A stretch of DNA of 64,000 nt from Planctomycetota bacterium. GTDB taxonomy: Bacteria > Planctomycetota > Brocadiia > Brocadiales > Bathyanammoxibiaceae. Positions 2,374-60,166 of the stretch are shown piece by piece. The stretch spans positions 42,853 through 106,852 of the forward strand of contig JACQVQ010000003.1 in the NCBI GenBank assembly GCA_016209685.1, read 5' to 3'. Numbering within the stretch: the stretch's first letter is position 1; each line of letters opens with the position of its first letter. The notes below the pieces were generated by a model. It worked only from the letters and a program-made list of their open reading frames with translations. It was not told where the DNA came from and ran no database searches. Position numbers and translations under genes: made by a program.

Positions 2374-3256
2374 GATTAACTCCTTCCGAGGCCAGGCCCA
2401 TAGACAGGGCATAGCGATAGAACTGCCTCAACCCCGCGACCTCCGCTTCCCCCAGTTCGTAGCAGATGTTCTCAGAGAGGTATCTCAGGCAGAACCCTGG
2501 CTCCAGCCCCAGCCTCTTTGCCTCTCTCCGGGCAATCTCAGGGAGGGCCGCCAGGCCCTTCCTCTTTGCCTCGTTGAGCAGCCTCCTGGCACTGTCCACT
2601 AGTCCTTTTTTAGAGGTGCCCCACAGGGCATAGACGAAGGGGAGTCCCGTAAGGGCCTTCCACTCTGCCCCCAGGTCAAGGGAATGCGGAGTGCGTTCCG
2701 AGTGCGGAATGGGGAATGCGGAGTGCGGAGTTGTTTTAATTCCGCATTCCGCAATCCGGAATCCGCATTTAGAACATTCCGCATTCCGCATTCGGGAGGC
2801 CATCTTCATGGCATTATCCCCAATGACCAGTACTGCGTCGGCCTGGGTATCATTTAAATCCTGATTACGGGGCCAGGGGACATACTCTACACTGGATAAT
2901 CTGAGGCCGTACCTCTCCTGGAGGATTATCCTGACCAGCGCGGCGGAGGTCAGGGAGGATTCATCCAGGGCGACCCGCTTGATGTCCCTTACACTGGGTA
3001 CACGCAGGAAGAGTAACACGCTTTCCACCGCCCCTCTGGAGGCAATGGACGTGTCTGGCACTACAAAAAAGGGGCGGCCGCGCAGGTATTCTATGGAGGG
3101 TATGAGGGCCACGTCTAATTCCCCTTGTTCCAGGAGGTCGGGCAGTTGGGAGGGCACAGCAAGGCGTAATTCTACCCCTCTACCGCCCTCTATCCCCGCA
3201 ACCAGGGGCTTTGTATTCAGGTAGGGTACTGCTCCGATTCTCAGACCTTTTTTCAT
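2285..3256 (-). CDS. mqnA: Chorismate dehydratase-like protein with an internal repeat-derived insertion
   Basis: RIGAVPYLNTKPL N-terminus and adjacency to mqnC; insertion MRNAECSKCGFRIAECGIKTTPHSAFPIPHSERTPHS. Confidence 0.8.
   Translation of the reverse strand: MKKGLRIGAVPYLNTKPLVAGIEGGRGVELRLAVPSQLPDLLEQGELDVALIPSIEYLRGRPFFVVPDTSIASRGAVESVLLFLRVPSVRDIKRVALDESSLTSAALVRIILQERYGLRLSSVEYVPWPRNQDLNDTQADAVLVIGDNAMKMASRMRNAECSKCGFRIAECGIKTTPHSAFPIPHSERTPHSLDLGAEWKALTGLPFVYALWGTSKKGLVDSARRLLNEAKRKGLAALPEIARREAKRLGLEPGFCLRYLSENICYELGEAEVAGLRQFYRYALSMGLASEGVNLDFGNKTHIREGTLQGTDSTRGGPGPHLL
2681..2794. repeat. GCGGAATGCGGAGTGCGG-type repeat inside mqnA
   Basis: Same words at 38786-38852, 53400-53490, 54310-54355, 58505-58560 and 60131-60163. 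Confidence 0.8.
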
Positions 3257-3261
3257 GGTTG

Positions 3262-3293
3262 TAGTAGGGGCGACCGGCCGGTCGCCCCTACAT
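3262..3293. repeat. Palindrome GTAGGGGCGACCGGCCGGTCGCCCCTAC
   Basis: Perfect inverted repeat; GTAGGGGC...GCCCCTAC family. Confidence 0.85.
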
Positions 3294-3295
3294 TT

Positions 3296-3853
3296 CTACA
3301 CGGAGGAACGGTGGCCCTTCCTAACGGGCTGGAGGTATCCTTTGTCCTCCAGGAGTTGGACGACCTTATTTGTGGAGTCCCCTACGGATTCATTGTGGGT
3401 CTCCAGGATAAGTTCTGGGTGGAGAGGTTCTTCGTAGGGGTCGTCCACACCGGTAAAGCCCTTTATCTCCCCGTTGAGGGCCTTCTTGTAGAGCCCCTTA
3501 ACGTCTCGCTTTGTGCACACGTCAATGGGACACTTTACGTATACCTCCAGGAAGTCCCCTATCTCCTTACGTGCATAATCCCTGATCTCCCTGTAGGGGG
3601 AGATGGCCGCCGCAATGGCCACCACGCCATTCCTGGTCATGAGCTTGCATACGTAGGCAATCCGCTTGATGTTCGTGTCTCTATCCTGCTTAGAAAAGCC
3701 CAGGTCTGAGCAGAGGTGCTTCCTGATGACGTCTCCGTCAAAGACCTCTACTTTATGGCCTCTATCTCTCAGGATTCCCTCCAACTTGTGAGCGATGGTA
3801 GTCTTCCCTGAGCTTGGCAACCCTGTAAACCAGACTGTTACACCCTTTTCCAC
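3296..3853 (-). CDS. cysC: Adenylylsulfate kinase
   Basis: GLPSSGKTT P-loop, DGDVIRKHL, FSKQDRDTNIKRIAYV, PYREIRDYAR. Confidence 0.9.
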   Translation of the reverse strand: MEKGVTVWFTGLPSSGKTTIAHKLEGILRDRGHKVEVFDGDVIRKHLCSDLGFSKQDRDTNIKRIAYVCKLMTRNGVVAIAAAISPYREIRDYARKEIGDFLEVYVKCPIDVCTKRDVKGLYKKALNGEIKGFTGVDDPYEEPLHPELILETHNESVGDSTNKVVQLLEDKGYLQPVRKGHRSSV

Positions 3854-3887
3854 TTATCTTGCCTCCTTGGTGAAATTGATTAAATCA

Positions 3888-5438
3888 CTACCTGCGATTT
3901 ATGGCGTTCCCCTTCATATCCAGAGGCACCTCCAGTCTCATGCATCCTAACACCGTTGGCGCCACGTCAAGGATATGGGCTGGCCCTGAACCAGAACGGT
4001 TCAGCATTGGGGGCAGAGCCCCAATGCTATAGCCCTGGCCCTGAACCAGACGGTTCAGGGCCTGCTGGGATTGGCTGTGAACCCCATGTGGTTCACAGTG
4101 CTCCGCCACCAGGGCTGGCCCTCTCTTGGCGTGCGAGGCAAGCTCGCACGCTACAGGGGAATCCATTAAATCCTCATTATACAAAATAAAGATACCATAT
4201 TGCGAGTGGTTTGCGTCATCAGAACCGTTGTCGTTCTCCCTGGTCCAAAATTTCTTGTGGCCCACACTGCCTATGCTTCTATAGTATTGGTCGCCGAAAT
4301 AGACGAGCAGGTCGGGTGCAATCCCCCTGCACTCCGAGTATATTTCCTCGGGCCTGAAGGCCCTGGTGTTTATTCTTTGTCCGCATTCATTTCTGATGTC
4401 CTCAAGCCCCTGGGCAAGCTCCCTCCTTATCCTTTCGTAATCCTGCGGGGGGATTAAGCCCATAGGCTCCCGCCCTCGCACGTTGAGGAATACCCTGCCA
4501 TAGTAGCCGCTGTGGGCCCAGGCTACTGTACGTCTCCAGTCTACCTTTAGGTGTTGAAAGGAGGTAATCTCCTGCGGGTATTCCAGTAGCCTGAGGTAAC
4601 CATTGGCCAGGAGCCACTCGTTGACGCATATCCCGCCCTCCATCCTCTTGGCCCCGTGGTCTGAGACGACCAGCAGGGTGGCACGCCCTTCTATCAGGGT
4701 CAAGATTTCACCCAATTCCCTGTCAAGGTATTTGTAATAGTCCAGTATTGCGTCTCCGTATTCAGTACCGGGGCAATAAGAGGGATGGGCCTCATCAAGG
4801 TATCTCCAGAAGGCATGTTGGAGCCTATCCGTGCCCATCTCCACCATCATAAAGAGGTCCCAATCCTGTCTCTGCAGGAGGGCCTTTGCCAGGCGAAATC
4901 GCCTCTGGGTCATCTCGTAGACGGTCTTGAGGATAGAGCCCTTGTCTCCGGAGCGGAAGTCTTTTACGTCCGGTATGTAGCCCCCAGTCAGCGCTTCTAC
5001 TTCGGTACGGAATTCCCTGGGGTAGGTATAGTCTGGCGAGTTTCCGGCCATAAAACAGCTTACCATCCTCCCGTTAATGGCCCTGGGGGGGTAGCTCGGG
5101 GGTATGCCTACCAGGATGGACCTGCGGCCGTATCTGGAGAGTATATCCCACAAGGTCTCTTCCCTTACCCAGCTGGAATCTACAAAGGCCATCTCACTGT
5201 AATCGTATCTGGTACGGTTTCTGAAGCCGTAGATGCCCAGCCGTCCAGGGTCTTTCCCGGTGACCATGGAGGCCCAGGCGGGGCAGGTGATGGAGGGGAT
5301 GGTGCTCTCCAGCTCCCCATACAGCCCGTGTCCTGTTAACCGTTGAATGGTGGGCAGTTCGCCCAGCCAGCGATTAAATAAGAGCTCAGGAGGGGCAGAG
5401 TCCAGACCTATGATGACAACTTTATCGGTATGACCCAT
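3888..5438 (-). CDS. Type I phosphodiesterase / nucleotide pyrophosphatase-like protein with a C-terminal repeat insertion
   Basis: VVIIGLDSAPPELL, VSDHGAK, HILDVAPTVL; start taken at the internal Met (MGHTDKVVIIGLD), because the ORF-track extension is repeat-derived. Confidence 0.8.
   Translation of the reverse strand: MGHTDKVVIIGLDSAPPELLFNRWLGELPTIQRLTGHGLYGELESTIPSITCPAWASMVTGKDPGRLGIYGFRNRTRYDYSEMAFVDSSWVREETLWDILSRYGRRSILVGIPPSYPPRAINGRMVSCFMAGNSPDYTYPREFRTEVEALTGGYIPDVKDFRSGDKGSILKTVYEMTQRRFRLAKALLQRQDWDLFMMVEMGTDRLQHAFWRYLDEAHPSYCPGTEYGDAILDYYKYLDRELGEILTLIEGRATLLVVSDHGAKRMEGGICVNEWLLANGYLRLLEYPQEITSFQHLKVDWRRTVAWAHSGYYGRVFLNVRGREPMGLIPPQDYERIRRELAQGLEDIRNECGQRINTRAFRPEEIYSECRGIAPDLLVYFGDQYYRSIGSVGHKKFWTRENDNGSDDANHSQYGIFILYNEDLMDSPVACELASHAKRGPALVAEHCEPHGVHSQSQQALNRLVQGQGYSIGALPPMLNRSGSGPAHILDVAPTVLGCMRLEVPLDMKGNAINRR
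3968..4166. repeat. Composite of nested palindromic repeats inside the phosphodiesterase gene
   Basis: Contains CCCTGAACCAGAACGGTTCAG, CATTGGGGGCAGAGCCCCAATG, CTGTGAACCCCATGTGGTTCACAG, split halves of AGCCCTGG...CCAGGGCT, GCGTGCGAGGCAAGCTCGCACGC. Confidence 0.85.
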
Positions 5439-5442
5439 TGGC

Positions 5443-7325: not shown

Positions 7326-9986
7326 ATGGGGAATTGTATGGACAGGGGACATGCTGAGTTTATCAGGAAAGGGACGGTATTTCTATTCACATCCGTTTCT
7401 TTGTGCATAAGTGTCATCCTCCTGGCCACTACGACGGTATTGATGGCAGACCAGCAGGAGACGCAGTCTGCCAGTGCAGGGACGGTAAGGAACTGGAGCG
7501 ACCTCGGACTGGAGCCGGTCAGCAGTGTCCCTCTTGGTGGATGTGAAATACCTCTCCTCTGCGAGATACCCCAGGAGGAATTAGAAAGGTTAAAGGCCCA
7601 GCCCTACGTCCCTCCTGCGGATGCAGGCATGGTCCAGCTTGATATGGACACTAGCGTCCTCGGTCTGGAGCCCCAGCCTTTAACTCCCGCCGTGGTCTCT
7701 GGTTTTGAGGCACGTGACAACGCCAGCCAGCCCAGCGGTTTTCGCCATAGGCCACCAGACCCCCATCTAGCCGTTGGTATCAGTCACATTGTGGAGATGG
7801 TTAACACCACTATAGTTGTCTACAATAAATCCGGGACTAAGTTAAAAGAGGCAAGTTTTAAGAATTGGTGGGGGAATGTTTATACAGGCTCCTCCAACCC
7901 ATTTGACCCGAGGGTGGCCTATGACCATAATGAGAATCGCTGGTTAATGGTAGTGCTTGTTAGAGAGACCACCACCCCTACATTGAGCAAGTATCTCCTC
8001 TCCATCTCTCAGACCTCTGACCCGACGGGCGCCTGGTGGAACTGGAGCCTTGAGGGAAAACTCACGATATCAAGTTCTGCTGGCTGGGCAGACTACGAGG
8101 ACCTGGGCTTTGACGGCATACCGAGTGGTTCTGGTGGGGCAATCTATCTCACCTCAAACCAGTTCACATTTTCTGCCAACGCATTTCAGACCTCTGCGAT
8201 TCTTATCTTACCCAAGTCCTCTCTCTATGGAGGGGCATCATTTGACTACTGGCGGGCATGGGATAGGACAAATTCAAGTGGCTCGCAGGCCGCCACACTC
8301 AGGGCGGCCCAGACCTTTGGCAACCCTGGTGTGGAGTATCTTGTCAATAGCGGTGGTAGCACCACCTCTGTTACCCTCTGGAGTATAACTCCCACCTTCC
8401 CGCCCACGGCCATCAACATAACAAGGCAGGCAACTGTAACGATAGGGAGCTACGCTGTGCCTCCCGATGCCGTGCAACTTGGTTGTGGCTCTACACTGGA
8501 TACCATAGGGAATCGTATTTATAACGCCATGTACCGTGATAACGCCCTGTATTGCGCCTTTTGTGAGGGCGTTGACTGGGGTGGTGGTGGTGGGACGGTG
8601 GCGGCGATCCGTTATCTGAAGATAAACACCGCTACCAATGCGGTTGCTATAGATGCCCGCTTCGGGGCAGATGGATTCTACTACTGGATGCCGGCTATCT
8701 ATACCGACAGGTTTGGGAATATTGTGGTGGTGTATGCACGGAGTAGTTCCACCGAGTATGCCGGCCTGTGGGCCAGTGTCCGCATGACCACCTCTAGTGG
8801 GATGCAGACCCTCCCCCAGTTGAAGGGGGGGGCACAGTGCATCACGGGTGATCGGTGGGGGGACTACTTTGGCGCCGTCCTTGACCCCGCTGATAATTCT
8901 CTTGTATGGGTCTGTGGCCAATGGGCAAAGGTAATCACAGGCGGCGACTCCATCTGGGACTGGGGTACATGGATTAGTTCCATCAGACCACGAGAAGCTA
9001 CTAACCGAGCAGATTTGATTGTAGACTTTGGCAATTTTAGTGCAGGCACCAATGTCTTTTATAATAATGCCGCCCCGTGGACCAGCCGCCACCACTGGGG
9101 CCCTGGGGCTTACAATATGGTCATTGGTGACCTGGACGGGAACGGGCAGGAGGATTTGATAGTGGACTTCGGCCCTCCCTGGGGGATAAACGTCTTTCAC
9201 AACAACACCGGCCCCTGGACCCGTATCCACAGTTTTAGCCCTGGCTCTGACAGGATGGCGATAGGTGACCTGGACGGGAACGGGAAGGATGACCTTATAG
9301 TGGACTTTGGCAATTTTAACGCAGGTATTAATGTCTACTATAATAATGCGGCCCCCTGGACCAGTGTCCACCCATTTGGCCCTGGTCAGGGCAGGATGGT
9401 TACCGGTGACCTGGACGGGAACGGGCAGGAGGATTTGATAGTGGACTTTGGCAACTTCAATGCCGGCATAAATGTCTACTACAACAATGCCGCCCCGTGG
9501 ACCAGCCTACATCCTTTTGGCCCGGGTGTAGGCAGGATGGTCACTGGGGATATGGACGGTAATGGGAAGGACGAGCTGATAGTAGACTTTGGCAACTTTA
9601 ATGCAGGCATTAATGTCTACTACAACAATGCCGCCCCGTGGACCAGCCGCCATCCCTTCGGCCCTGGGGCACACAGGATGGTTACAGGTGATATGGATGG
9701 GGATGGGAAGGCTGATTTGATAGTGGACTTTGGCAACTTTAATGCGGGCACCAATGTCTTTTATAATAATGCCGCCCCGTGGACCAGCCGCCACCATTGG
9801 GGCCCTGGCTCCGGCAGGATGGCAGTAGGCGACCTGGACGGGGAGGGGAAGGCGGATTTGATAGTGGACTTCGGCCCTCCCTGGGGGATAAACGTCTATC
9901 GCAACAATGCGGGCCCCTGGACCAATATCCACGCCTTTAGCCCTGGCGAGGGCAGGATGGTTACGGGGAATATGGATGGAAATTAA
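7326..9986 (+). CDS. Large secreted protein with C-terminal VCBS/FG-GAP-like repeats
   Basis: Repeated GDLDGNGQEDLIVDFGNFNAGINVYYNNAAPWTS units in the C-terminal third. Confidence 0.8.
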   Translation: MGNCMDRGHAEFIRKGTVFLFTSVSLCISVILLATTTVLMADQQETQSASAGTVRNWSDLGLEPVSSVPLGGCEIPLLCEIPQEELERLKAQPYVPPADAGMVQLDMDTSVLGLEPQPLTPAVVSGFEARDNASQPSGFRHRPPDPHLAVGISHIVEMVNTTIVVYNKSGTKLKEASFKNWWGNVYTGSSNPFDPRVAYDHNENRWLMVVLVRETTTPTLSKYLLSISQTSDPTGAWWNWSLEGKLTISSSAGWADYEDLGFDGIPSGSGGAIYLTSNQFTFSANAFQTSAILILPKSSLYGGASFDYWRAWDRTNSSGSQAATLRAAQTFGNPGVEYLVNSGGSTTSVTLWSITPTFPPTAINITRQATVTIGSYAVPPDAVQLGCGSTLDTIGNRIYNAMYRDNALYCAFCEGVDWGGGGGTVAAIRYLKINTATNAVAIDARFGADGFYYWMPAIYTDRFGNIVVVYARSSSTEYAGLWASVRMTTSSGMQTLPQLKGGAQCITGDRWGDYFGAVLDPADNSLVWVCGQWAKVITGGDSIWDWGTWISSIRPREATNRADLIVDFGNFSAGTNVFYNNAAPWTSRHHWGPGAYNMVIGDLDGNGQEDLIVDFGPPWGINVFHNNTGPWTRIHSFSPGSDRMAIGDLDGNGKDDLIVDFGNFNAGINVYYNNAAPWTSVHPFGPGQGRMVTGDLDGNGQEDLIVDFGNFNAGINVYYNNAAPWTSLHPFGPGVGRMVTGDMDGNGKDELIVDFGNFNAGINVYYNNAAPWTSRHPFGPGAHRMVTGDMDGDGKADLIVDFGNFNAGTNVFYNNAAPWTSRHHWGPGSGRMAVGDLDGEGKADLIVDFGPPWGINVYRNNAGPWTNIHAFSPGEGRMVTGNMDGN
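9012..9986 (+). repeat. Tandem repeats of about 141 bp inside the VCBS-like CDS
   Basis: GATTTGATAGTGGACTT-type words recur about every 141 bp, roughly seven units. Confidence 0.8.
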
Positions 9987-36950: not shown

Positions 36951-37206
36951 GGGTTACCTCGCATACGTGTTTATTGGAAGGCCACAAGAAAAGATTTAAG
37001 TCCAAATGCCAAATGTCAAATCAAATCCAAAATCCAAATGCCAAACAAAAAACCCATTTGACATTTATTTGTCATTTGGGCTTTGGCATTTGGATTTTCC
37101 ATCATCCTTTAAGCTAACCATATTGAATGATGGATGTAAATGGCTGGATTCAACAAGATGCAACGGGGTTAAATAGGGATAATGGATTTTTATTGGCTGG
37201 CTGGTC

Positions 37207-37290
37207 TCACACAAACCTCACCCTCGGCTCCCCGTGCCGGCGGAGCATACGGACGGCCATCTCAAGGGCGTCGGGGGCGTGGTCGCGTGC
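37207..37290 (-). pseudogene. Duplicated 3' end of the terminase large subunit gene
   Basis: Reverse strand reads ARDHAPDALEMAVRMLRRHGEPRVRFV*, matching the terL C-terminus at 38419. Confidence 0.88.
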
Positions 37291-37293
37291 ACC

Positions 37294-37938
37294 TCAAATC
37301 TCAGAAACAAGTTTATCTAGCTTATCAAACTCAATACGTTTACTTATTACTTGTGAAGATACCTCAAAACTTTTCGCCACCCACTCCTCAACAATTTCTC
37401 GCAGGAAGCCGGAGTTTGCGTGGGCTTTTATATTGTTAGAAATACCGTCCATAGTCCCTTTTATGTCTTTAATTGCCTTCTGGATCTCTACCTTCAGGGG
37501 GGCTTGTGGAACCAGCAATAAACCCGCAAAACAACGCCCCTGCCATTCCACCCTTCTCAAGAGACTGTCAGGAATGGCTTTCACAAATGTTTTCCAACCA
37601 TCTACGTCTTGAACTTTTGACACTTTGAATAACTGTGGATGTAACACTAGGTGGCCAACTTCATGAGCTATGGTAAAACGGTATCTGGCGGGGTTTACGT
37701 GTTCCATTACCCCTTTGTCCACTGCAATGGAAGAAAAGTCTCCGTACAAGAAACCATCCATATCCAGCACATTGTATAGACCAGGAAGAGGGATGATATC
37801 AAGATTAAGTTTCCGCTCTGCGATGTCATCAATAGGAACTGGTATGGAGAGGGAGGGGTGATATTTTTCTAGGAAGGAATCGGCCTTCTTACGTATTTCC
37901 TCATAATCCATCCAAGGAACATCTGGGAAATCCTCCAA
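37294..37938 (-). CDS. ImmA/IrrE-type zinc metallopeptidase
   Basis: RFTIAHEVGHLVLHP. Confidence 0.8.
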   Translation of the reverse strand: MEDFPDVPWMDYEEIRKKADSFLEKYHPSLSIPVPIDDIAERKLNLDIIPLPGLYNVLDMDGFLYGDFSSIAVDKGVMEHVNPARYRFTIAHEVGHLVLHPQLFKVSKVQDVDGWKTFVKAIPDSLLRRVEWQGRCFAGLLLVPQAPLKVEIQKAIKDIKGTMDGISNNIKAHANSGFLREIVEEWVAKSFEVSSQVISKRIEFDKLDKLVSEI

Positions 37939-37940
37939 GA

Positions 37941-38321
37941 TTAGGCCCTCTTGATAATTTGAATTAGTGCCTTTAATTGTTCATCCGTAACCTTTTGCCC
38001 TCGTATAGTCCTGAAGAGTATGGGAAGCTTTTCTACGACCTCTTCATCTTCCATAACTTCCTCCGGAATCTTGCCCTGGGCCACGTAGGCCAAATCGAAG
38101 AACTCATACCATTCCGCCGAACCCTCTTTAAGCTCTAAATGCCTGGCGTACTCTTCCAGTTTTTCACGCTTATCAGGAGGTGACATTTTCCCCCTCTCTA
38201 GCTTACTAATATTGGCAGGGTCCAGTCCCTTCTCCAGGCAGAAACGCCTCAGGGTATAGCCCAGGTCCATTCGCCTATTCTTAAAGAATTCCCCAAACTC
38301 CTTTAATGTCTCCCTTTTCAT
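37941..38321 (-). CDS. XRE-family regulator
   Basis: GEFFKNRRMDLGYTLRRFCLEKGLDPANISKLERGKMSPP; paired with ImmA-like gene. Confidence 0.8.
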   Translation of the reverse strand: MKRETLKEFGEFFKNRRMDLGYTLRRFCLEKGLDPANISKLERGKMSPPDKREKLEEYARHLELKEGSAEWYEFFDLAYVAQGKIPEEVMEDEEVVEKLPILFRTIRGQKVTDEQLKALIQIIKRA

Positions 38322-38418
38322 AACCTTCTCCCTCCCTTTCTCTGTGGTAATAATTATACCACACATCTTGGGATTTTTCAACACCCTTCAAAATGACTGG
38401 TTGGATTTCTTTTAATGG

Positions 38419-40092
38419 TTACACAAACCTCACCCTCGGCTCCCCGTGACGGCGGAGCATCCTGACGGCCATCTCAAGGGCGTCAGGGCCGTCGTCGTGG
38501 GCGCCCTTCGGGAATTGAATAAGCTGGTCTATCAGGGCCTTCTGGCCCTGTACCTTATTGGCTCTGAACCAGAACGGTTCAGGGTTGGTACAGGGCTGGT
38601 CGTCTTTCCTGAAAAGGATACTACCGGATTCAACCAGTGGCGAAAGGCTCCCTACCCTTGCCACCTTGTCAGAGAAATTCCTTACGGGACGGATGGGTAT
38701 GAAGAGCCCTTGCTTACGAGACATCTCCTCAAGCATGTCCTTTAAGACCACCTGGAAGGCGTTGGTCTCAATGGCCAGGCACAAGAAATGCGGATTGCGG
38801 AGTTCGGAATTCGTAATTTTAACTCCGCACTCTGCACTCTGCATTCCGCATTGGGTAGACCACCTCTGGAAGTTCCTGACGGCGGCCTCCAGGGTCTCCC
38901 TGGGACTCCCACGTACAAGCTCCACCTCAAGTACATAAATCCTCCCCGCCTGCTGGCCCACCGTGACCAGGGCGGAGTAGTCGCCTGGATGGGAGTGCCC
39001 GCCTGAGGCGGACCACCGCCCGCCCCCGCCAAGGGCCGGGTCAAGGGCAGTAACTATGAGGAGTTCTCCCTTTAACTCCTCTGGACTGTAGTATCTTATC
39101 CACTCTGGCCTGAAGAGTTGCTCCTCAGGGCTTATGGGGTTATTCTGGTACTCGCACTCAAAGGCCAGTGTGCCTATGCCCTCCTTCTGGCCGTCCCCGT
39201 TCTTTATCAACAGTAGCCTCTCTCCGTCATAATAACCCGGCCACAGCGCCTCCCCCTCCGGAGAGAGGGCCTGGTAGCGACGCCCCCTCCAGGCCTTAAT
39301 AAGTAGAGAAAGCAGGCTGTCGTGGTGGAGGATAGTGCCGATGACAAAGACGTCCCCCGTGGGGCCAAGGAGGTTTAGTACCGAGCCAAAGAACCAGTTC
39401 TTCAACTTCTCCCGGTTCTGAGGGTTAAGTACCACCTCCTCATCCTCCAGGTCGTCGCAGATTATCAAATCCGGACGGCTCTCAAAGCTCCGCATGCCCC
39501 TCAGGGAGGAATCCACCCCACGGGCCGATACCCTTATGCCAGTAGAGGTGAGGATGTCACGGTCTGTCCATTTCTCCCTACCCACAAGCTCCCCAAAGTC
39601 CCGTCTGAGGAGGGCGTTCTCCTCTAGCTCCCTGGTAATGGAGGCCAGGAAGCCCTCGGCTATGGCGCTGGAACTGGATAGGAGGACGATGAAGCGTTTC
39701 CTCCGGGTGCAGATGGCCCAGAGGGGAAAGACCAGGCTCGTGAGGACGCTCTTACCGTGACCCCTTGGGGCGGCGATGGCCTCACGCTTGCCCTGCACCG
39801 TCCTGGTGCAGGGCTTGTTGGCCTCCTTTGAGGCCATAAGGTGGTATAACTCCTTGTGGAAAGGGGCGGCAGGGGCAGTGAGATAGTGTGAGAGGTAACG
39901 CCTTGCGAAGGTCTCGGGGTCATCCCCCGACTCCGTCTCCTTGAGTACATCCTTCAGGAGGGGTCGTGTCTTCGGCCGGCTCATCAAGGTCAATAATCTC
40001 TTTAAGGAGCGCTTTGACCTTCTGTCTCTCTTCTTCGTTAAAGTCTCCAAAGTTGGTTTCATTTTTGCCACGTAATTGTCCGAGGTAATCAA
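38419..40092 (-). CDS. terL: Phage terminase large subunit with several in-frame repeat insertions
   Basis: Walker A-like APRGHGKS, LIICDDLEDEE, VTALDPALGGG; insertions KPCTRTVQGK, RWSASGGH, NAECGVKITNSELRNPH, NPEPFWFRANKVQGQ. Confidence 0.88.
   Translation of the reverse strand: MITSDNYVAKMKPTLETLTKKRDRRSKRSLKRLLTLMSRPKTRPLLKDVLKETESGDDPETFARRYLSHYLTAPAAPFHKELYHLMASKEANKPCTRTVQGKREAIAAPRGHGKSVLTSLVFPLWAICTRRKRFIVLLSSSSAIAEGFLASITRELEENALLRRDFGELVGREKWTDRDILTSTGIRVSARGVDSSLRGMRSFESRPDLIICDDLEDEEVVLNPQNREKLKNWFFGSVLNLLGPTGDVFVIGTILHHDSLLSLLIKAWRGRRYQALSPEGEALWPGYYDGERLLLIKNGDGQKEGIGTLAFECEYQNNPISPEEQLFRPEWIRYYSPEELKGELLIVTALDPALGGGGRWSASGGHSHPGDYSALVTVGQQAGRIYVLEVELVRGSPRETLEAAVRNFQRWSTQCGMQSAECGVKITNSELRNPHFLCLAIETNAFQVVLKDMLEEMSRKQGLFIPIRPVRNFSDKVARVGSLSPLVESGSILFRKDDQPCTNPEPFWFRANKVQGQKALIDQLIQFPKGAHDDGPDALEMAVRMLRRHGEPRVRFV
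38543..38595. repeat. Nested palindromes inside terL
   Basis: GGCCCTGTACCTTATTGG[CTCTGAACCAGAACGGTTCAGGGTT]GGTACAGGGC. Confidence 0.85.
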
Positions 40093-40369
40093 AGAGGATT
40101 TTAATGGCCTGGACGTTACCCTCCTTGGCCTTCTCCGTGAGGGCCTGGAGGAGGCGGGGCATTTCCTCCATAATGCGGTCCTTACACGTCTCTTCCAGGG
40201 CCTCCTGGAAGCCCGGCAGTGACCTCCACCTGGACAGCAATTTGGGATTTACCTTGAGCTCCCGTGCAATCTCCTCCGGGCTGCTCCCGGAGGAAAGCAG
40301 TTGCAAGAAGCGTCTTTGTTTGGGTTTCCAAACGGTAGAGCCGCCGTGCCTGGAGGGTCTGGAATTCAT
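39920..40369 (-). CDS. Terminase small subunit-like HTH protein
   Basis: KQRRFLQLLSSGSSPEEIARELKVNPKLLSRWRSLPGFQEAL; start taken at internal Met. Confidence 0.7.
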   Translation of the reverse strand: MNSRPSRHGGSTVWKPKQRRFLQLLSSGSSPEEIARELKVNPKLLSRWRSLPGFQEALEETCKDRIMEEMPRLLQALTEKAKEGNVQAIKILFDYLGQLRGKNETNFGDFNEEERQKVKALLKEIIDLDEPAEDTTPPEGCTQGDGVGG

Positions 40370-40823
40370 AGAGAGGATAGCCCCACAAGAAAGGGGGCCA
40401 GGGCTGTCCGCCTTGGCGGATGTTCTATCGGCCTTTATTTTTTTTAGCCTGCCTCTTTGGGCACACGCCCTGGCCCACAAGTTTTTTGTAGTGCCAGCCC
40501 TGAACCAGAACGGTTCAGGGCCAGTGGAAATCTTTAAGTAGAAGTCTACCACATCTCCAGTGGATGTCAACTCATAGACGCCACAAGTTTCCACTCCGTT
40601 AAACAATAATTTCAAAAATCAGCTATCAGTAATCAGCAATCAGCTATCAGGAATCAGCAAGCTGACCGCTGTTTGTCATTTGGGCTTTGACATTTGGATT
40701 TTCCCCACTCCCTAGCCTTTGAGGTCTGTATTGACATGCCCACAGCCGCATGTATACTGGAGAAAATATTAAGGATAATTAAAAGGCCTATCTAGGCCAT
40801 AACGAAGGAAAGGATTAGGGCGT

Positions 40824-43986: not shown

Positions 43987-44826
43987 GTGAAGGCAGATAA
44001 AAAACTTAGACATCTCCGGGCTGAGAAGGGATGGACCAAGTCTGAAGTGGCCAGGGTCGCCGGGATACCTATCTCCAGTTACAGGAACTACGAGAAGGAG
44101 AACCTAAAAGAGCTGCCTGGAAAGGCAGCCCTGAGCCTGGCAAGGGCCTACGGTGTTACGGTAGAATATCTCCTGAACGACAGCAAGGACTTTCCACCCG
44201 ACCCAGGGGACAGGGTGACCAAGGAGGGGGTATCAGGTAATCTGCCTAAGGTCCGCCATGGCGAATTCCTTGGGGGTCTGCCTAAAGAGGAGGCCGTAGG
44301 TAAGACAGGTGCTACTGCACAGACAGCCGGCGGCAGGACTACCCAAACGAGGCTTCCAGGGTTCATCGCTCCGCTACAAAACATCCCTGTCGTAGGCTAT
44401 GTGGCGGCAGGGGAGACGGAGATTGCCTACGACGATGCTGGTCTGCCCGTGGGCGGGTCAATAGACGAACCCCTGGAGAGGCTCCCTGATGTCACTGATG
44501 AGCATGCCTACGGGCTCACCGTGAGTGGCAACAGTATGTTGCCGGGCTACCCCAGGGGGACAAAGGTCATAGTCTGCCCTTCTGAGAAGGTAAGGTCGGG
44601 GGACCTGGTCATCTGCCGCCTCCGCAGCACTGGTAAGGTCTATATCAAGGAGATAGCCTTTGTAGGGAGTCCGTCTAAGCCTGCACTTGAGCGGAGCGAA
44701 GGGGCGTATGCCACCTCTGGCATGGTAGTCCTCAAGTCTCACAACATGACGGCCCACGAACCCATGGTGGTGCCAAGGGAGGACATACTATTCTGCCACA
44801 AGGTGGTCTGGACGAAGAGGCCGTAG
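43987..44826 (+). CDS. XRE-S24 (LexA/CI-like) phage-type repressor
   Basis: N-terminal HTH KLRHLRAEKGWTKSEVARVAGIPISSYRNYEKEN; VSGNSMLPGYPRGTKVIV and VYIKEI peptidase S24 motifs; GTG start. Confidence 0.85.
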   Translation: MKADKKLRHLRAEKGWTKSEVARVAGIPISSYRNYEKENLKELPGKAALSLARAYGVTVEYLLNDSKDFPPDPGDRVTKEGVSGNLPKVRHGEFLGGLPKEEAVGKTGATAQTAGGRTTQTRLPGFIAPLQNIPVVGYVAAGETEIAYDDAGLPVGGSIDEPLERLPDVTDEHAYGLTVSGNSMLPGYPRGTKVIVCPSEKVRSGDLVICRLRSTGKVYIKEIAFVGSPSKPALERSEGAYATSGMVVLKSHNMTAHEPMVVPREDILFCHKVVWTKRP

Positions 44827-48421: not shown

Positions 48422-49804
48422 ATGACCCTACTTAACCTCCAACCACTCCTCCTCAAAAGCGGCCACGTGATTGACCCGGCCACCGGGCTGGACTCGGTAA
48501 CTGACATACTTGTGAAGAAAGGCCGCATATCACTGATTGCCCCAGATATAACCCCCGAAGAGGGGGAAGAGGTAATTGATGCAGGTGGTAAATACGTAGT
48601 ACCAGGGCTTATTGACTGCCACGTACACCTGAGGGACTTTGGGGAGTGCCAGAGGGAGACCATTGCCTCCGGCACCAGGGCGGCGGTTATGGGCGGTTTT
48701 ACTACCGTTATCTGTGAACCCAACACCAAACCACCACTGGACTCTCCAGAGAGACTTGAGGCCCTCAGGGAGAAGGTGGAGAGGGAGGCCCTGTGCAGGG
48801 TGTATGCAAAGGCGGCCATGACCAGGGGCAGGGAGGGGGAGGCGTTGACGGACTTCAAGGCCCTGAAAGGCCATCCCTTAGTCGTGGCCCTCTCCGAGGA
48901 CGGTAACCCCATCGTGGAAGAACAACTTATGAGAGAGGCCTGCCGCCAGGCCGCCAACCATCAACTACCCCTTAGCCTTCACTGTGAGGATTCTGGCTTC
49001 TCCCTATCCAAAATTTGTAGGGACAGACCTTCAGGTCTGTCCTCGGACAGGTCTAAAGACCTGTCCCTACGTCTTGGCTTTGGCCCTAGAGAGCCATTCC
49101 ACAACGAGCCTGGCTTCATTGCCAGGGACTTACGCCTGGCCCAGGAAACGGAGGCGAGTGTCCACATATCCCACGTCAGCCTGGCCGAGTCCATCCAGAT
49201 AATTGAGGAGGCCAAAAAGGACGGTAAAGGGCCTGCCCTGCACCCTTGTGGTGCAGGGAGGATTACCTGTGAGGTCACCCCCCATCACCTCTTCCTTGAC
49301 GAGGCCAGTAGAGGGCCTCATGGACTGCCCTTCACCGTCAATCCCCCCCTCAGGAAGAAAGAGGACTGCACCGTACTACAAAAGGCCATTAAAGGTGGTA
49401 CAATTGACGCCATTGCCTCCGACCATGCCCCGCACAGGGAGGAGGATAAGAGGGCCGGTGCCCCTGGTCTAATTGGACTGGAGACCACACTAGGTGTGGT
49501 GCTTACCAGGTTAGTACACCCCGGTATTATCTCCCTGAAGGAGGCCGTGAGGCTGATGTCCAACAACCCTGCCAGGATTTTTGGCCTGGGAGGCGGCAGT
49601 CTGGCCGTGGGGAGTCCGGCGGACATAACCGTAATAGATATGGAAAGGGAATGGATAGTAGAAGGCAAAAGATTCCAATCCCTTGCCCGGAACTGCCCCT
49701 TTGAGGGCTGGAGGTTAAAGGGCCAGGCCGTCCTTACCATGGTAGGAGGGAGGGTGGTGATGAGGGAGGGGGTTATTAAAGGGTTCAAGCGTTTAAGGGT
49801 TTAA
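48422..49804 (+). CDS. pyrC: Dihydroorotase with in-frame palindromic insertions
   Basis: VVPGLIDCHVHLRDFG, CEPNTKPPLDSPE, TIDAIASDHAPH; palindrome-encoded SKICRDRPSGLSSDRSKDLSLRLG and ALHPCGAGR. Confidence 0.88.
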   Translation: MTLLNLQPLLLKSGHVIDPATGLDSVTDILVKKGRISLIAPDITPEEGEEVIDAGGKYVVPGLIDCHVHLRDFGECQRETIASGTRAAVMGGFTTVICEPNTKPPLDSPERLEALREKVEREALCRVYAKAAMTRGREGEALTDFKALKGHPLVVALSEDGNPIVEEQLMREACRQAANHQLPLSLHCEDSGFSLSKICRDRPSGLSSDRSKDLSLRLGFGPREPFHNEPGFIARDLRLAQETEASVHISHVSLAESIQIIEEAKKDGKGPALHPCGAGRITCEVTPHHLFLDEASRGPHGLPFTVNPPLRKKEDCTVLQKAIKGGTIDAIASDHAPHREEDKRAGAPGLIGLETTLGVVLTRLVHPGIISLKEAVRLMSNNPARIFGLGGGSLAVGSPADITVIDMEREWIVEGKRFQSLARNCPFEGWRLKGQAVLTMVGGRVVMREGVIKGFKRLRV

Positions 49805-52776: not shown

Positions 52777-53289
52777 TCAGAGGTATTGCTGGGCTGTCTC
52801 TACTGTCCCCACCGCATCCCCGGCCTTGAAGGTGATGATGGCCCTGCTCCCTGAGAAGTAGGCCACTCCCTTCACGGTAAATACGGCCTTGCCGTTTGCG
52901 TCTGTCTTTATCTCCTCAGGCTCTACAGAGGCACGATTGGGGGTATCGCTTGAGGCCGTAACCAGGACGTTTGGTACGGGTTTCTTGTCTCTGTCCAGAA
53001 CGGTTACATAAACGGTCTGAACCTCCCCAACTCCGGCACTTAAACCTGTGGGCACTGCCTCTATAAATGCAGGGGCTTTGGCAGAGGCATCCTCTGCATA
53101 CACCTCAGGGATACCACAGCCCTGGTGGCGGAGCACCAGGGCTATAGCATTGGGGCTCTGCCCCCAATGCTGAAGACCAGCCACCACTATGTTACTTCCC
53201 GGCAGCATCCATAGGCCGGAAAAGAGCAGCAGGAACAACGCTATTTTAAGGTCTAGCTTCATAACACCTTCTCCTTTCATTGCATCCAC
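52777..53289 (-). CDS. Secreted Big-1/Ig-like domain protein with a 54-nt repeat inserted after the signal peptide
   Basis: VQTVYVTVLDRDKKPVPNVLVTASSDTPNRASVEPEEIKTDANGKAVFTVKG; GLQHWGQSPNAIALVLRHQG coded by the repeat. Confidence 0.7.
   Translation of the reverse strand: MDAMKGEGVMKLDLKIALFLLLFSGLWMLPGSNIVVAGLQHWGQSPNAIALVLRHQGCGIPEVYAEDASAKAPAFIEAVPTGLSAGVGEVQTVYVTVLDRDKKPVPNVLVTASSDTPNRASVEPEEIKTDANGKAVFTVKGVAYFSGSRAIITFKAGDAVGTVETAQQYL
53118..53171. repeat. 54-nt double-hairpin repeat inside CDS
   Basis: Reverse complement of 26690-26743. Confidence 0.9.
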
Positions 53290-54996: not shown

Positions 54997-55179
54997 GCTA
55001 GGGGGTAGGGAGTAGGCAGATTAAAAATGCCAAATTCCAAAGCCCAAAGTTCAAATGAAATCCAAATGTCAAAACTCAAATATCAAATTTGGAATTTGGA
55101 TTTTTGACATTGATTTGACATTTGGATTTTGGTATTTGGATTTCTGCTTACTCCTTACTGCTTACTGCCTACTGTTTAT

Positions 55180-55977
55180 ATGTGCTATATCTTCTTACTA
55201 AACTTTTGTCTCTTCCTAATGGCCTCTACCTTGCACGCACAGGGACTACTGGATGCCCTTTCCACGGGGAAGACCAGGGTGATAGACCTCACCTACCCCC
55301 TCAACTCAAAGAATGCCTTCTGGCCCGGGGAGTCTTACAACTCCTTCAAACACGAGGTCCTTGCCTCACTGGAAAAGGACGGGGTTTACTCCGGCAGGTA
55401 TTCTACCCCGGAACACCTGGGGACGCACATGGACGCCCCGGCCCACTTTGAACCCAACCAACCCACCGTAGACAAGATACCCCTGGAAGACCTGGTCGGT
55501 CTGGCCGTGGTCATAGACGTCAGCCTGAAGGCATCCGCCTCAGGCGGAGACCCCGATTACCGGCTGAAGGTGGAAGACATCACGGAATGGGAGAAAAGAC
55601 ACGGCACCATACCACAGAGGGCCATTGTACTCTTATATACGGGGTGGGGGAGGCGGTGGGCAGATTATGGTAGATATAAAAATGCCGATGAGAACGGGGC
55701 ACTCCACTTCCCGGGCTTCTCCAGGGAATCTGCCCTGTTCCTGTCAGATACCCGCCAGGTCAAGGCCCTGGGGATAGATACCCTGAGTGTGGACTATGGT
55801 CTCTCAGGAGACTTCCCAGTCCACCACATCTTCAACTCCAGGGGGCGGTGGCTACTGGAAAACCTGGCCAATCTGGACAAGCTCCCACCCACCGGGGCCA
55901 CGTTAATCGTCGCCCCCATAAAGATAGAGGGAGGCTCAGGCGGCCAGGCACGTGTGTGGGCGCTGATTAGGGAATAG
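55180..55977 (+). CDS. Cyclase family (kynurenine formamidase-like) metal-dependent hydrolase
   Basis: RVIDLTYPLNSKNAFWPG, STPEHLGTHMDAPAHF; palindrome-encoded ASASGG. Confidence 0.85.
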   Translation: MCYIFLLNFCLFLMASTLHAQGLLDALSTGKTRVIDLTYPLNSKNAFWPGESYNSFKHEVLASLEKDGVYSGRYSTPEHLGTHMDAPAHFEPNQPTVDKIPLEDLVGLAVVIDVSLKASASGGDPDYRLKVEDITEWEKRHGTIPQRAIVLLYTGWGRRWADYGRYKNADENGALHFPGFSRESALFLSDTRQVKALGIDTLSVDYGLSGDFPVHHIFNSRGRWLLENLANLDKLPPTGATLIVAPIKIEGGSGGQARVWALIRE

Positions 55978-56420: not shown

Positions 56421-56432
56421 GGAGCTCAAAAA

Positions 56433-56750: not shown

Positions 56751-58310
56751 CTATCTCTTCACCTTCCGCCTAAGGGCCAGGGCAAAGAGAGCAATTTGGA
56801 CGTAAACAACAATAGATTCCAATACCAAAATCCATTTATTCCAGCCAGCAACATGCATTGCCTCACCAATTCTAGTAACGCGCGTAAAAGTAGCTACCTC
56901 TAAGCTATACCAAAAAGAGTTACACAAATCCTCTACCCAATTCCCAAAACAGAAGGGTCTATCGCTGAACAGCAAAGGTGGTACTAAAACATCCAGGGAC
57001 AATAGTAGAGGAAATGCAACAAGGACAAGCAAGGCCAGAACTATAGAGGCCCTTTTGGGTCTCTCGCCGTAGCCACTAGTCCAGTAGAGGGCCTCAAGGG
57101 AAAGGATATTGCGTCCCAGCCACCCGTACATCTTCCGCCTGCACTCCATCTCCCCGTAGTGGAAGTCCCCGGCCGTGTTCCAGTCCTTCTTATCCTCAAA
57201 GTTCCGCTTAAGCTCCAGGTAGAGCCGACGTACAGGCTCGTATTTCTCCTCCCTGAGCTTCTCTTCGCCCTTTGTCATTCTGACCCTGAACGAAGTGAAG
57301 GGGAAGAATCTCGTATCTGTCTCACTAAGATTTTTCTCCACATCCTCATCGCCATCCAGTTCGTCTACCGTAGGGGCAGGTTTTAAACCTGCCCCTACAG
57401 CCTCATCCGCCTCAAGCTCGTCCCTTAAGACGTTTTGCTTCCTCGGAGGGAATATGAAAAAGGACTTCTCCTCTTTACCAAATTCACAATACCTGAAGTC
57501 CACCTTGTCTATGCTGGAGTGGAGGAAGGAACAGTGGGAGAGGTCAACGTTCTGGAATACCACCTCACCCAGGAATCTGGTGTACTTGAACGAACTCCCA
57601 GGACCCAGAAGTACGGGCCTCCTTTCATTACCCAACTCCAACGACTGAAAGCGTACCCTCTTCCTGAACTCGGCATCATTAAAATTTGCCCCTTTACTGA
57701 AGGTAGTACCTACAAAATCCCCCTCAGAGAATGTGGCCCTACTGAAATCCGCCCTCTCAGAGAATTCGGCCTCACCGAAATACGCCCCCCCAGAGAATGT
57801 GGCCCCACTGAAACCCGCCCCCTCAGAGAACGTGGCCTCAATGAAAACCGCCCACTCAGAGAACGTGGCCTTAATGAAAACCGCTTCTTTAGAGAACGTG
57901 GCCCGCTGGAAATCTGCCACCTTAGAGAATTTGGCCTCACCGAAAAACGCCCACTTAGAGAATTTGGCCCCGCGGAAATCCGCCTCCCCAGAGAATTTGG
58001 CTCCACCGAAATCCGCCCTCTCATAGAATGTGGCCTCACTGAAATCTACAGGCACAGGCACACCAAAACTGTAGTTAATACGAATACATGTGTGGTCAAA
58101 GCCTTCGGGGAAGTAACAGCCCTTTAAGTCTATGCTGTCCTTACCTTCTATCCTCTCCTCCACCTTTTGTTTAAAGGCCTCCAGGTCTTTGTCATCACGG
58201 GTGGAATGTAGGATGCAGAGGCCGTCCCTGTCGCCTTCCAGGGGAGGTTCATTACATACATAACTTGAATATTTTGATTTCCAGTTGCACATCCTTCTTT
58301 TCCCTTTCAA
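56751..58310 (-). CDS. Pentapeptide-repeat membrane protein with repeat-derived insertions
   Basis: (A/S)DFxxAxFS pentapeptide array and C-terminal TM segments; AVGAGLKPAPTV and TDTRFFPFTSFRVRMTKGEE from palindromic repeats. Confidence 0.8.
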   Translation of the reverse strand: MKGKRRMCNWKSKYSSYVCNEPPLEGDRDGLCILHSTRDDKDLEAFKQKVEERIEGKDSIDLKGCYFPEGFDHTCIRINYSFGVPVPVDFSEATFYERADFGGAKFSGEADFRGAKFSKWAFFGEAKFSKVADFQRATFSKEAVFIKATFSEWAVFIEATFSEGAGFSGATFSGGAYFGEAEFSERADFSRATFSEGDFVGTTFSKGANFNDAEFRKRVRFQSLELGNERRPVLLGPGSSFKYTRFLGEVVFQNVDLSHCSFLHSSIDKVDFRYCEFGKEEKSFFIFPPRKQNVLRDELEADEAVGAGLKPAPTVDELDGDEDVEKNLSETDTRFFPFTSFRVRMTKGEEKLREEKYEPVRRLYLELKRNFEDKKDWNTAGDFHYGEMECRRKMYGWLGRNILSLEALYWTSGYGERPKRASIVLALLVLVAFPLLLSLDVLVPPLLFSDRPFCFGNWVEDLCNSFWYSLEVATFTRVTRIGEAMHVAGWNKWILVLESIVVYVQIALFALALRRKVKR

Positions 58311-58739
58311 TGCATTATATTTTGGAGTCTCCGCCTGAGGTGGACAATGGCCCCTTCATTATTCGCAGGCTAAAGCCTGCGGCTACTCCCTACTCTCTAT
58401 CCCCTATACTCTGACATGCGGGCTGGACTCCATAAGCAGCGGTGGCCTATTATATTGCACTCCAGGGGAGATGTCTAACCTGTAACCCCTTTTAAAAATG
58501 CAGGGTGGGGAATGCGGAGTGAGGAGTTAATTCCGCAATCTGCACTCAGCAATCCGCATTTCCTACTCCCTACCCCTGTGAACCACGTGGGGTTCACAGC
58601 TAAGGTACAGGCAAGCCCTGCACCCTGCGTGGTGCGGGGACTACCCCCTATCTTTCCCCCGTTCCCTGTTTATTGAAACCAGTGGAATCCCGTGGAATCT
58701 AGACATTTACTCTTTTGGTACGTCTGCTAGACTTGGGGC

Positions 58740-58961
58740 GTGATGGGCACCGGAGAGAAACTCGTAAATAAGAGGGCCGTCATGCGGCTTCAGGAGAAGG
58801 CAGAGAGAACCCTGGAGGCCGTCATGCGTCAGGGCTTCTACGGCTCCGTGACCCTGGAGGTCTCCCTGGTGGACGGCCTCATCAGAAGCATCCGTACGCG
58901 TGTGGAGGAACAGGAGGTGGTGGGGAAGGGGGAGGGGGCAGGGAGTAGGGATCAGAATTAA
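58740..58961 (+). CDS. DUF2292-like small protein
   Basis: FYGSVTLEVSLVDGLIRSIRTRVEE. Confidence 0.55.
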   Translation: MMGTGEKLVNKRAVMRLQEKAERTLEAVMRQGFYGSVTLEVSLVDGLIRSIRTRVEEQEVVGKGEGAGSRDQN

Positions 58962-59331
58962 GAATTCAGAAGTCAGAATTCAGAATACTAATCCGCCTGA
59001 GGCGGAAAGACTTTGGATTATGGGCTAACCGCTGGTTCAATCCCGCCCGAGGCGGACTTTCAGCTTGAAGATTGAACCAGCATTAAGGTTGAGTTTTTTT
59101 TCCTGGCTACTTGCTACAGTTTTTGACTTACCTGTTAAACCTAGTTGCAACCTGTTGAATCCAGCCATTTACTCTTTTGAAAGATATGTTATACAAAGAG
59201 GTGTAATCAGTAGTCAGCAGTCGGGGGTCAGCAGTCAGTAGGGGCGGGGTTACCCCGCCCCTACAAAAATTCCTGATTGCTGAATTCCTGAAAAACGGTA
59301 ACCGAAGGTTCCGCTTAACAACGGATTCCAA

Positions 59332-59378
59332 GAGGCCCGAAGGAGTTGCCATACCCTCCCTCGGGCCTTTTTCTTTTT
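59332..59378 (+). terminator. Intrinsic terminator upstream of the prohead protease gene
   Basis: AGGCCCGA...TCGGGCCTTTTTCTTTTT hairpin plus T-run. Confidence 0.65.
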
Positions 59379-59410
59379 ACAGACCTGACACTATCAAAAA
59401 GGAAGGGAAG

Positions 59411-60166
59411 ATGCCAAATACCCTATACAAGGCCTTTCAGGCCGACGTTCTAAACCAGGAGGATTCCCGGAGGACTCTATGGGCAGTGGCCAGTATGGAG
59501 GCGCCTGACAGAGAGGGTGACGTAATACTGGCGGAGGGGTGGGAACTGGAGAATTACAGGAAAAACCCCGTCATCCTCTTTGCCCACAAGTACGACCAGC
59601 CCCCAGTGGCCAGGGCACTGGAGATTGGGGTCTCTCAGAAGGGGCTGCGGTTCAGGGCCCAGTTCCCCAGCCGCAAGGAGTATCCCTTTGCCGACACCAT
59701 ATATCAGCTTTATCGGGGTGGGTATCTCAGGAGCTTCTCCGTAGGCTTTATCCCGAAACTCTGGGAGGACAGGAAATCTCCCTCAGGGGATGGGCAAGGG
59801 GGCAGGCTTTTCAGGCGGCACGAATTGGTGGAAATTTCTGTCGTCCCCATCCCCACACATCCCAAGGCCCTGGCTGAGGCCCAGAAGAAGGGACTCCTGG
59901 GACGGGAGGAGGTGAGGGTGCTGGAAACATTGGGGGCAGAGCCCCAATGCTATAGCCCTGGTGCTCCGCCACCAGGGCTGGCCAGTGTCTCAGCAGAGGC
60001 GGAGGCGGGAAGGGAGGCCCTGGTGAGGCTGGAACTCCTCCTGAAGGGGGTACAGGACCTTCAGGCCCAGGCCACCCTCTCCCAGGAGGAGGTGGTGACC
60101 CTGGTGGAAAGGGCGATGAAGGAATCTCTGGAATGCGGAATGGGGAATGCGGAGTGCGGAATGTAG
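59411..60166 (+). CDS. HK97-type prohead maturation protease with repeat insertions
   Basis: ASMEAPDREGDVILAEGWELENYRKNPVILFAHKYDQPPVA, YLRSFSVGFIP; C element encodes TLGAEPQCYSPGAPPPGLA. Confidence 0.88.
   Translation: MPNTLYKAFQADVLNQEDSRRTLWAVASMEAPDREGDVILAEGWELENYRKNPVILFAHKYDQPPVARALEIGVSQKGLRFRAQFPSRKEYPFADTIYQLYRGGYLRSFSVGFIPKLWEDRKSPSGDGQGGRLFRRHELVEISVVPIPTHPKALAEAQKKGLLGREEVRVLETLGAEPQCYSPGAPPPGLASVSAEAEAGREALVRLELLLKGVQDLQAQATLSQEEVVTLVERAMKESLECGMGNAECGM
59928..59980. repeat. 54-nt double-hairpin repeat inside prohead protease CDS
   Basis: Matches 26690-26743. Confidence 0.9.

Follow-up and report, generated by a model that had tools for sequence, protein, structure and literature searches.

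How do short palindromes come to lie, in frame, within unrelated genes, and what becomes of the DNA on which they land? These questions are raised by a stretch of 64,000 nucleotides (nt), termed here the window, which comprises bases 42853-106852 of contig 2 in the metagenome-assembled genome (MAG) of a member of an uncultured lineage of Planctomycetota related to the Brocadiales (G000; 2.02 Mb in 14 contigs). A sequence-only reading of the window had reported that several families of inverted repeats, found also between genes, occupy ten named genes without breaking the reading frame, and had likened them to the Rickettsia palindromic elements (RPEs). Here, we follow these repeats through the genome and its relatives, and find it probable that they represent very small mobile elements of several families living side by side, all non-coding and hairpin-forming, whose landing sites are filtered by reading frame, by peptide and by RNA helix.

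Comparisons were made with two congeners (G001 and G002) and a sister genus (G006), using up to 36 orthologs per gene. Protein identity to DnaG is 87% for Planctomycetes bacterium RIFCSPHIGHO2_12_FULL_52_36 (contig MHYW01000095.1, presumed to be G001:C95), a congener. The DnaG of Candidatus Brocadiaceae bacterium Yes70-17 (presumed to be the congener G002) is 96% identical over the available part, and that of Planctomycetota nzgw511 (presumed to be the sister-genus genome G006) is 71% identical. The sequence behind the statistics amounts to 464 kb in G000, 894 kb in G001, 277 kb in G002 and 52 kb in G006.

Repeat families in the window and the genome

Six repeat classes, named PAL, F2, F3, F4, HEP and F6, were mapped in the window; all six are present where the sequence-only reading had placed them, in open reading frames (ORFs) and between genes, far above chance. 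PAL is a palindrome of 15 nt (TCCGCCTNAGGCGGA). F2 (CCCTGAACC..GGTTCAGGG; core GCCCTGNACC-5-GGTNCAGGGC) reaches ~33 nt with its outer arms, F3 consists of two hairpins in 54 nt, and F4 (~28 nt) holds an inner palindrome between GTAGGGGC and GCCCCTAC. HEP comprises hairpins of heptamers, (GCGGAATG)n, and F6, which is similar to repetitive extragenic palindromic (REP) sequences, has the form AGATTCTTC-hairpin-TCAGAATGACA.

Searching the whole genome revealed dispersed, near-identical copies and none in reversed controls. PAL, in the form CCGCCTNAGGCGG, occurs at 17 sites of the window with at most one mismatch; the 2.02-Mb genome contains 152 exact copies of TCCGCCTGAGGCGGA, and 194 when any centre base is accepted (control 0 in both cases). 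Copies of PAL number 227 in G001, 259 in the other congener and 158 in G006, with the reversed pattern giving 0-2 over genomes. Some other members of the family hold 72-96 copies, and G009, which belongs to a second family, holds 88; genomes of the order's remaining families have four or fewer each, and almost all have none. One 28-nt subtype of F4 has 44 exact copies in G000 (control 0) and 51 in G002, with 1-3 in three further members of the order; the sample's other 387 planctomycetes hold no copy. Both PAL and this subtype have therefore undergone recent, lineage-specific expansions. The genome-wide counts, set against reversed-pattern controls, also exclude palindromes that arose by chance.

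The hairpins covary. At pair 6 of the F2 stem, 59 copies include 22 with A-T, 20 with C-G, 11 with T-A and one with G-C, while F4 has constant ends around many unrelated inner sequences that are self-complementary, with at most one mismatched pair, in 122 of 138 cases. Families are also built into one another: PAL is nested within F4 and within F6, a 24-nt hairpin lies in the F2 loop, and F6 swaps its hairpin module, at times for PAL. Unrelated families re-use the same sites, such as F4 or HEP in mqnA and F2 or PAL in ORF 39920; the FQRWS site of terL holds HEP, is empty, or has a long F6-like insert. A text search of the literature with the element sequences returned no description of them, its one match being a study of bacteria from cheese and skin that was judged unrelated by title and abstract.

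Reading frame, peptide and the replaced hexamer

Length differences of at least 9 nt between the window and the two congeners (some loci being counted twice) are divisible by three in 37 of the 41 cases within genes (p = 5e-14), and in 16 of the 46 outside genes, which is the chance value (p = 0.88). The four exceptions within genes lie at a gene end, at a contig end with Ns, and in two stretches upstream of the probable start. Genes are also sparsely occupied: they hold 31 of the 82 PAL copies in the 464 kb, where 84% of bases are coding, and this amounts to a ~ninefold lower density. Of these 31 copies, 21 are read as SASGG, which is one of five stop-free readings and would be expected in one-fifth of cases (p = 1e-8); the reading-frame bias favours this small, flexible peptide. 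The inserts are most likely translated together with the host gene, because their removal from the mRNA, or their skipping, would give neither the frame bias nor the peptide bias. For annotators, it follows that SASGG, VGAGLKPAPT and RNAECG motifs in these genomes are often element-derived.

The sequence-only reading had regarded the hairpins as inserted. Their mobility is supported, but PAL, the best-studied family, replaces ~6 nt instead of being plainly inserted. This emerged from an empty-site comparison, in which both flanks of every PAL copy were anchored in another genome and the intervening length was measured; random 15-mers treated in the same way gave 15 nt in 1166 out of 1200 cases. 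At coding sites that lack PAL, the interval is 6 nt in 15 comparisons, 12 nt in two (one locus) and 15 nt in one. Counted as independent coding loci, and with one further site added, 11 of 13 have exactly 6 nt (p = 2e-7 against a flat distribution over 0, 3, ... 15), and the net length added by PAL is near-constant. The coding filter alone is unlikely to produce this value, because intervals of 0, 3 and 9 nt would be equally allowed, yet none was seen at coding sites. Noncoding PAL sites, few in number and mostly within F6 elements or hairpins, gave 6 nt at three loci inside F6 (four comparisons), 6 nt in the mqnA-cysC spacer, and values of 5 and 4 nt; two further noncoding cases, which are hard to read, gave near 0 nt. 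The PAL of the phosphodiesterase gene can be polarised, with only G001 filled and G000, G002 and G006 each keeping 6 nt. No consensus among the replaced hexamers was seen by eye. A full swap is found at L102:15115, where comparison with L164 shows that the 15-nt PAL exactly replaces an unrelated 15 nt between identical flanks inside a gene, for a net change of 0.

The loss of target is again 6 nt for F3 at both of its sites. In the Big-1 gene (52777-53289), the 54-nt element at 53118-53171 (minus strand) replaces AGCACT, and in the prohead protease gene (59411-60166), the element at 59926-59979 (plus strand) replaces AGACCT; each insert is net +48 and absent from G001, G002 and G006. At three coding loci the net gain from F2 is +27, and in RNase P RNA it is +28, lengths that would fit a 33-nt element with 6 or 5 nt of target lost. 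A possible 4-nt repeat (CCTC), as a target duplication would leave, occurs only at the F2 of rnpB.

Host genes and their surroundings

Host genes were compared for eight of the ten named cases, namely mqnA, phosphodiesterase, dnaG, terL, pyrC, the S24 repressor, Big-1 and the prohead protease. The in-frame insertions claimed for them are confirmed by alignment: relatives have empty or differently filled sites, and orthologs either lack the segments or carry swaps in place of the same residues. The two genes outside this comparison are the cyclase, for which the relatives' contigs end early, and the pentapeptide protein, which has only a divergent ortholog. Filled and empty sites are lineage-specific and the frame is kept in genes only, in keeping with the proposal that mobile or copied hairpins are tolerated in loops and linkers. 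Mis-called ORFs are excluded for the genes tested, where flanking protein sequence is kept on both sides in relatives; the caution stays for the 5' part of ORF 39920-40615 and for the 3' end of mqnC, which together account for three of the four in-gene exceptions to the frame.

In mqnA (2285-3256), a HEP inverted repeat of the GCGGAATG type lies at 2683-2798 (minus strand). A match to MqnA was found in 36 other genomes, and in all of them the orthologs align as two blocks with nothing to pair with residues ~155-191; the loop holds F4 in the congeners and in G006, and is short in more distant orthologs. The adjoining mqnA-cysC spacer contains an F4 (GTAGGGGCGACCGGCCGGTCGCCCCTAC) at 3264-3291, where the congeners have other hairpins, one with PAL replacing its 6-nt loop. 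Near cysC on a congener contig, the Rfam DUF3800-IX RNA motif was detected (L001 14755-14825, minus strand), with no match in the window. The phosphodiesterase gene (3888-5435) carries a composite of F2, half of F3, a further F2 and a third hairpin at 3984-4116 (minus strand); it is absent from G001 and G006, and its net length is +126 relative to G001 and +108 relative to G002, which has a single F2. In dnaG, the PAL at the C-terminus (32389-32403, minus strand) is found only in G000 and replaces CTGACG of the congeners (RQ to SASGG; net +9), while the linker (32803-32995, minus strand) is net +75 relative to G001 and contains PAL at 32848-32862 and F2 at 32875-32897 and 32950-32972.

Four elements, all on the minus strand, are hosted by terL: an F2 at 38562-38584 that is common to G001; a HEP at 38790-38853 (net +48) that is absent from G001 and faces a different, longer repeat in G006; a PAL at 38998-39012 that is decayed in G001; and an F2 at 39791-39813 (net +27 relative to G006), directly upstream of the Walker-A-like GHGKS, with another 24-nt hairpin nested in its loop in G001. 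The first F2 and the PAL are absent from G006. The portal gene (35742-36950) has a clean insertion of a 24-nt hairpin element (TAGGTTCGCTCCGCTCACTACAGG; 36543-36566, minus strand) that is absent from G001, G002 and G006. Near the 5' end of ORF 39920-40615, whose 5' part probably precedes the true start, an F2 at 40498-40520 lies where G001 has PAL. The S24-repressor gene (43987-44826) holds an F6-like segment at 44670-44708 (plus strand; net +30 relative to G002), present in G001 and absent from G002 and G006. Two inserts on the plus strand lie in pyrC (48422-49804): a palindromic insert of the GTAGGGACAG..CTGTCCCTAC type at 49006-49084 (net +48 relative to G001), and an F2 at 49228-49258 (net +27) whose nine residues, GPALHPCGA, occur only in G000 among 20 orthologs. 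The cyclase gene (55129-55977) has a PAL at 55534-55548 (plus strand) read as SASGG, and the pentapeptide-protein gene (56751-58310) has an F4 at 57370-57398 (minus strand) encoding VGAGLKPAPT. A heptamer run at 60131-60163 (plus strand) supplies the C-terminal residues of the prohead protease, where the congeners have other sequence, and an F4 at 62098-62125, absent from G002, directly follows the gp6-like gene (61575-62096). When mapped onto AlphaFold models of MqnA and PyrC, both built on shallow alignments, the inserts map to regions of low confidence that separate secondary-structure elements; the predicted local distance difference test (pLDDT) score is below 50 at residues 173-190 of MqnA and at 190-224 and 269-278 of PyrC. 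This placement agrees with the loops and linkers that had been proposed.

Proteins are not the only hosts, and the sequence-only reading overlooked three helix-borne elements of the RNase P RNA gene (Rfam RF00010; 29447-29893, minus strand), which holds two PAL and one F2. The F2, in the 3' helix (about P19; 29522-29544), is net +28; G001 lacks it and has an uninterrupted CCGCTATGAGGTAGTGG, and G006 has another loop. A PAL-like hairpin forms P12 (29732-29746), where G002 and G006 have long heptamer hairpins, and the PAL in the P3 hairpin (29851-29865) is common to G001 and G002 and absent from G006. G002 has two heptamer hairpins of ~70-90 nt, at P12 and upstream of it. The RNA measures 447, 418, 561 and 604 nt in G000, G001, G002 and G006, respectively. 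Thus, the hairpin elements found at the helix ends of an essential ribozyme differ from one species to the next. tmRNA was checked as a second RNA host, and in seven genomes it is 355-357 nt long with no insert.

The window has other repeats and genes of note. ORF 7326-9986 contains 141-nt repeats at 9009-9982 that encode DLIVDFG-type units. A repeat protein at 62536-63903 is made of ~153-156-nt units (DGGYIVAG..WQKTYGG) that vary in number between congeners, and a tandem array of a 27-nt unit (GGTGCATGGTAAGCCATGAACCCCTGT) at 63865-64000 forms the end of both window and contig. HK97-type phage head genes, named by eye, form two groups ~20 kb apart: terL and portal at 35742-40615 (minus strand), and prohead protease, capsid and gp6 at 59411-62096 (plus strand), with the host genes pyrC, nth and Fic in between. 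The capsid is 99, 97 and 87% identical to those of G001, G002 and G006, respectively; these scattered head genes are apparently inherited vertically and are perhaps gene-transfer-agent-like.

Mechanism, alternatives and known systems

In the mechanism that we propose, copies would be made to new sites in trans, and the landing of PAL or F3 costs ~6 nt of target, for a net +9 or +48. The majority of copies sit in spacers. Those in genes would persist only where the frame is kept and the peptide is bland (SASGG, NRSGSGPA), adding residues to linkers and loops that would be translated with the host gene, and those in RNase P RNA would persist by extending an existing helix tip. We infer a common mobilising reaction, along with translation and neutrality of the inserts, and favour a replacement reaction based on single-stranded DNA or hairpins. 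The bolder proposal, that a single, hitherto undescribed reaction reads hairpin shape and not sequence, swapping ~6 nt for PAL, F2 or F3, is possible but doubtful. If it were true, few known mobile elements would be smaller than these, and they would steadily supply genes with in-frame linker insertions and ribozymes with longer helices.

Several points weigh against this account. The six-nucleotide rule is firm for PAL only, with F3 represented by two sites; the ends of F2 are not sharp, and F4 fits worse, being net 17-18 at four sites and either losing ~10 nt or being swapped. The weakest link is the noncoding evidence outside F6 and other hairpins, which is thin. A preference for hairpin-forming targets initially appeared at p = 7e-4, with F4-nested sites included and GC content unmatched, and was dropped; after GC matching and removal of the nested sites, p = 0.09. 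The sets of 41 and 46 length differences include some that count one locus twice or that involve tandem repeats. Counts of Y1_Tnp genes and of PAL over 61 genomes show no correlation: G001, with its 227 PAL, has one weak Y1 match, and PAL-free anammox genomes have many Y1 genes. Finally, all support is comparative and comes from MAGs, with no element caught in motion.

Might these be ordinary REP sequences, or their mobile hairpin-forming doublets (REPINs), moved by the genome's REP-associated tyrosine transposases (RAYTs, encoded by Y1 genes) and entering genes by accident, without any new reaction? We regard this as possible but doubtful. G000 has three Y1_Tnp genes, and one of them (L166), which we take to have a RAYT-type N-terminus, is bracketed by direct copies of the F6 sequence AGATTCTTCGCTCCGCTCAGAATGACAATTGAAGGGATACAGCAA at 1401-1411 and 2114-2124. 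F6 is probably the REP of this gene; it had been listed among the families within genes and is indeed present, but it is almost never found in them (1 of 40 in G000), although it is the sole family tied to a RAYT here. PAL, F2 and F3 bear no GTAG or CGTC tag and, unlike RAYT substrates, were not seen to bracket the Y1 genes of G000 as pairs; the lack of correlation between PAL and Y1 numbers over 61 genomes led us to set RAYT aside as the mover of PAL. F4, by contrast, ends in GTAG/CTAC, and PMC3733652 presents GTAG-tagged REPs as likely RAYT substrates and intragenic REPs as already known from Opitutus terrae and Rickettsia conorii. An F4 palindrome also lies in frame (VGAGFKPAPT) in the coding sequence of another Y1 (RAYT-like) gene, L170 (G000:C11:254021-254416).

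The main alternative to the favoured reaction is that hairpins are copied when forks stall, through template switching or ectopic gene conversion, whereby any short palindrome would be pasted in and a few nucleotides replaced. Replacement in lieu of insertion is what this would yield, as are the exchange of 15 nt for 15 at L102:15115 and of 12 for 15 at another site, PAL nested in F4 or swapped into F6 hairpins, and sites common to unrelated families. However, template switching predicts variable lengths, where 11 of 13 coding sites have exactly 6 nt, and it needs flanking microhomology, where the replaced hexamers have no visible consensus; we consider it unlikely. Ordinary expansion of linkers and loops, or ancestral sequence lost in relatives and palindromic by chance, might be suspected for the dnaG linker and the terminal heptamers, which lie where length varies anyway, but identical copies at unrelated loci, covariation, and empty alleles in several relatives, including the outgroup, leave it next to no credence. 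An artefact of assembly or binning is extremely improbable: the congeners and sister genus are themselves MAGs, and some congener contigs end or have runs of N at repeats, but the same families recur at other sites in three separately assembled MAGs (those of the two congeners and the sister genus), and the differences keep the frame in genes and coincide with repeat boundaries.

Among known systems, in-frame palindromes have been described from Rickettsia and Wolbachia (PMC3767692), and the likeness drawn to RPEs is fair as an analogy. As with those elements, unrelated genes carry the palindromes in frame and at exposed positions, further copies lie between genes, and the inserts are absent from the orthologs of other genera (mqnA, pyrC, prohead protease and Big-1). 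The analogy fails on length, since PAL (15 nt), F2 (~33 nt), F3 (54 nt) and F4 (~28 nt) fall short of the 100-150 bp of RPEs (PMC3767692); a presumably unrelated sequence, and hosts among planctomycetes that are known through metagenomics, also set them apart. The orthologs of R. japonica reportedly all have their insert at the same locus (PMC3767692), unlike the sites here, which are often empty or swapped in congeners. The excerpted text describes no fixed loss of 6 nt of target for RPEs.

REPs and REPINs, which are mobile with RAYTs according to PMC3116915, are alike in being palindromic repeats of 20-40 nt, with hundreds of copies, inverted pairs and intragenic copies, and in the bracketing of a RAYT-like gene by F6. 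The unpaired GTAG/CGTC tag is lacking from PAL, F2 and F3, and the GTAG of F4 is paired with CTAC; pairs of PAL, F2 or F3 around a RAYT gene were not seen; the excerpted text of PMC3733652 and PMC3116915 describes no 6-nt replacement for REPs. The heptamer repeats of Xanthomonas and Nostoc (GGGNATC type) are dispersed 7-nt units that are mainly intergenic (PMC4692102); those described here form long inverted repeats (hairpins), some of them in frame in mqnA and terL or within RNase P RNA. Miniature inverted-repeat transposable elements (MITEs) of 70-300 bp have terminal inverted repeats and target-site duplications, whereas the elements here are shorter and ~6 nt are lost (PAL and F3). The small dispersed repeats (SDRs) of Nostoc (Elhai et al. 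2008) are reportedly hairpins of ~21-27 nt in several unrelated families, with compensatory changes, which lie within one another and amid heptamer repeats and are taken to be mobile. With these, the planctomycete elements share compensatory change (F2 position 6, F4 inner stems) and nesting (PAL in F4 and in F6, and the 24-nt hairpin in the F2 loop); they differ in phylum, in gene insertion with a peptide filter, in their use of ribozyme helices and in the near-constant 6-nt loss.

PAL, F2 and F3 resemble RPEs, REPs and SDRs, and depart from RPEs in length and from tagged REPs and MITEs in their defining features. Many conserved proteins, and RNase P RNA, now exist with and without short inserts as a natural mutagenesis set, and two questions become testable: which enzyme leaves the target 6 nt short, and where proteins and ribozymes can accept an insertion. 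Recent events that can be polarised among congeners provide a footprint of the reaction (PAL net +9, F3 net +48), and so bear on how elements of 15-50 nt move, a question that REPs, RPEs and SDRs raise as well.

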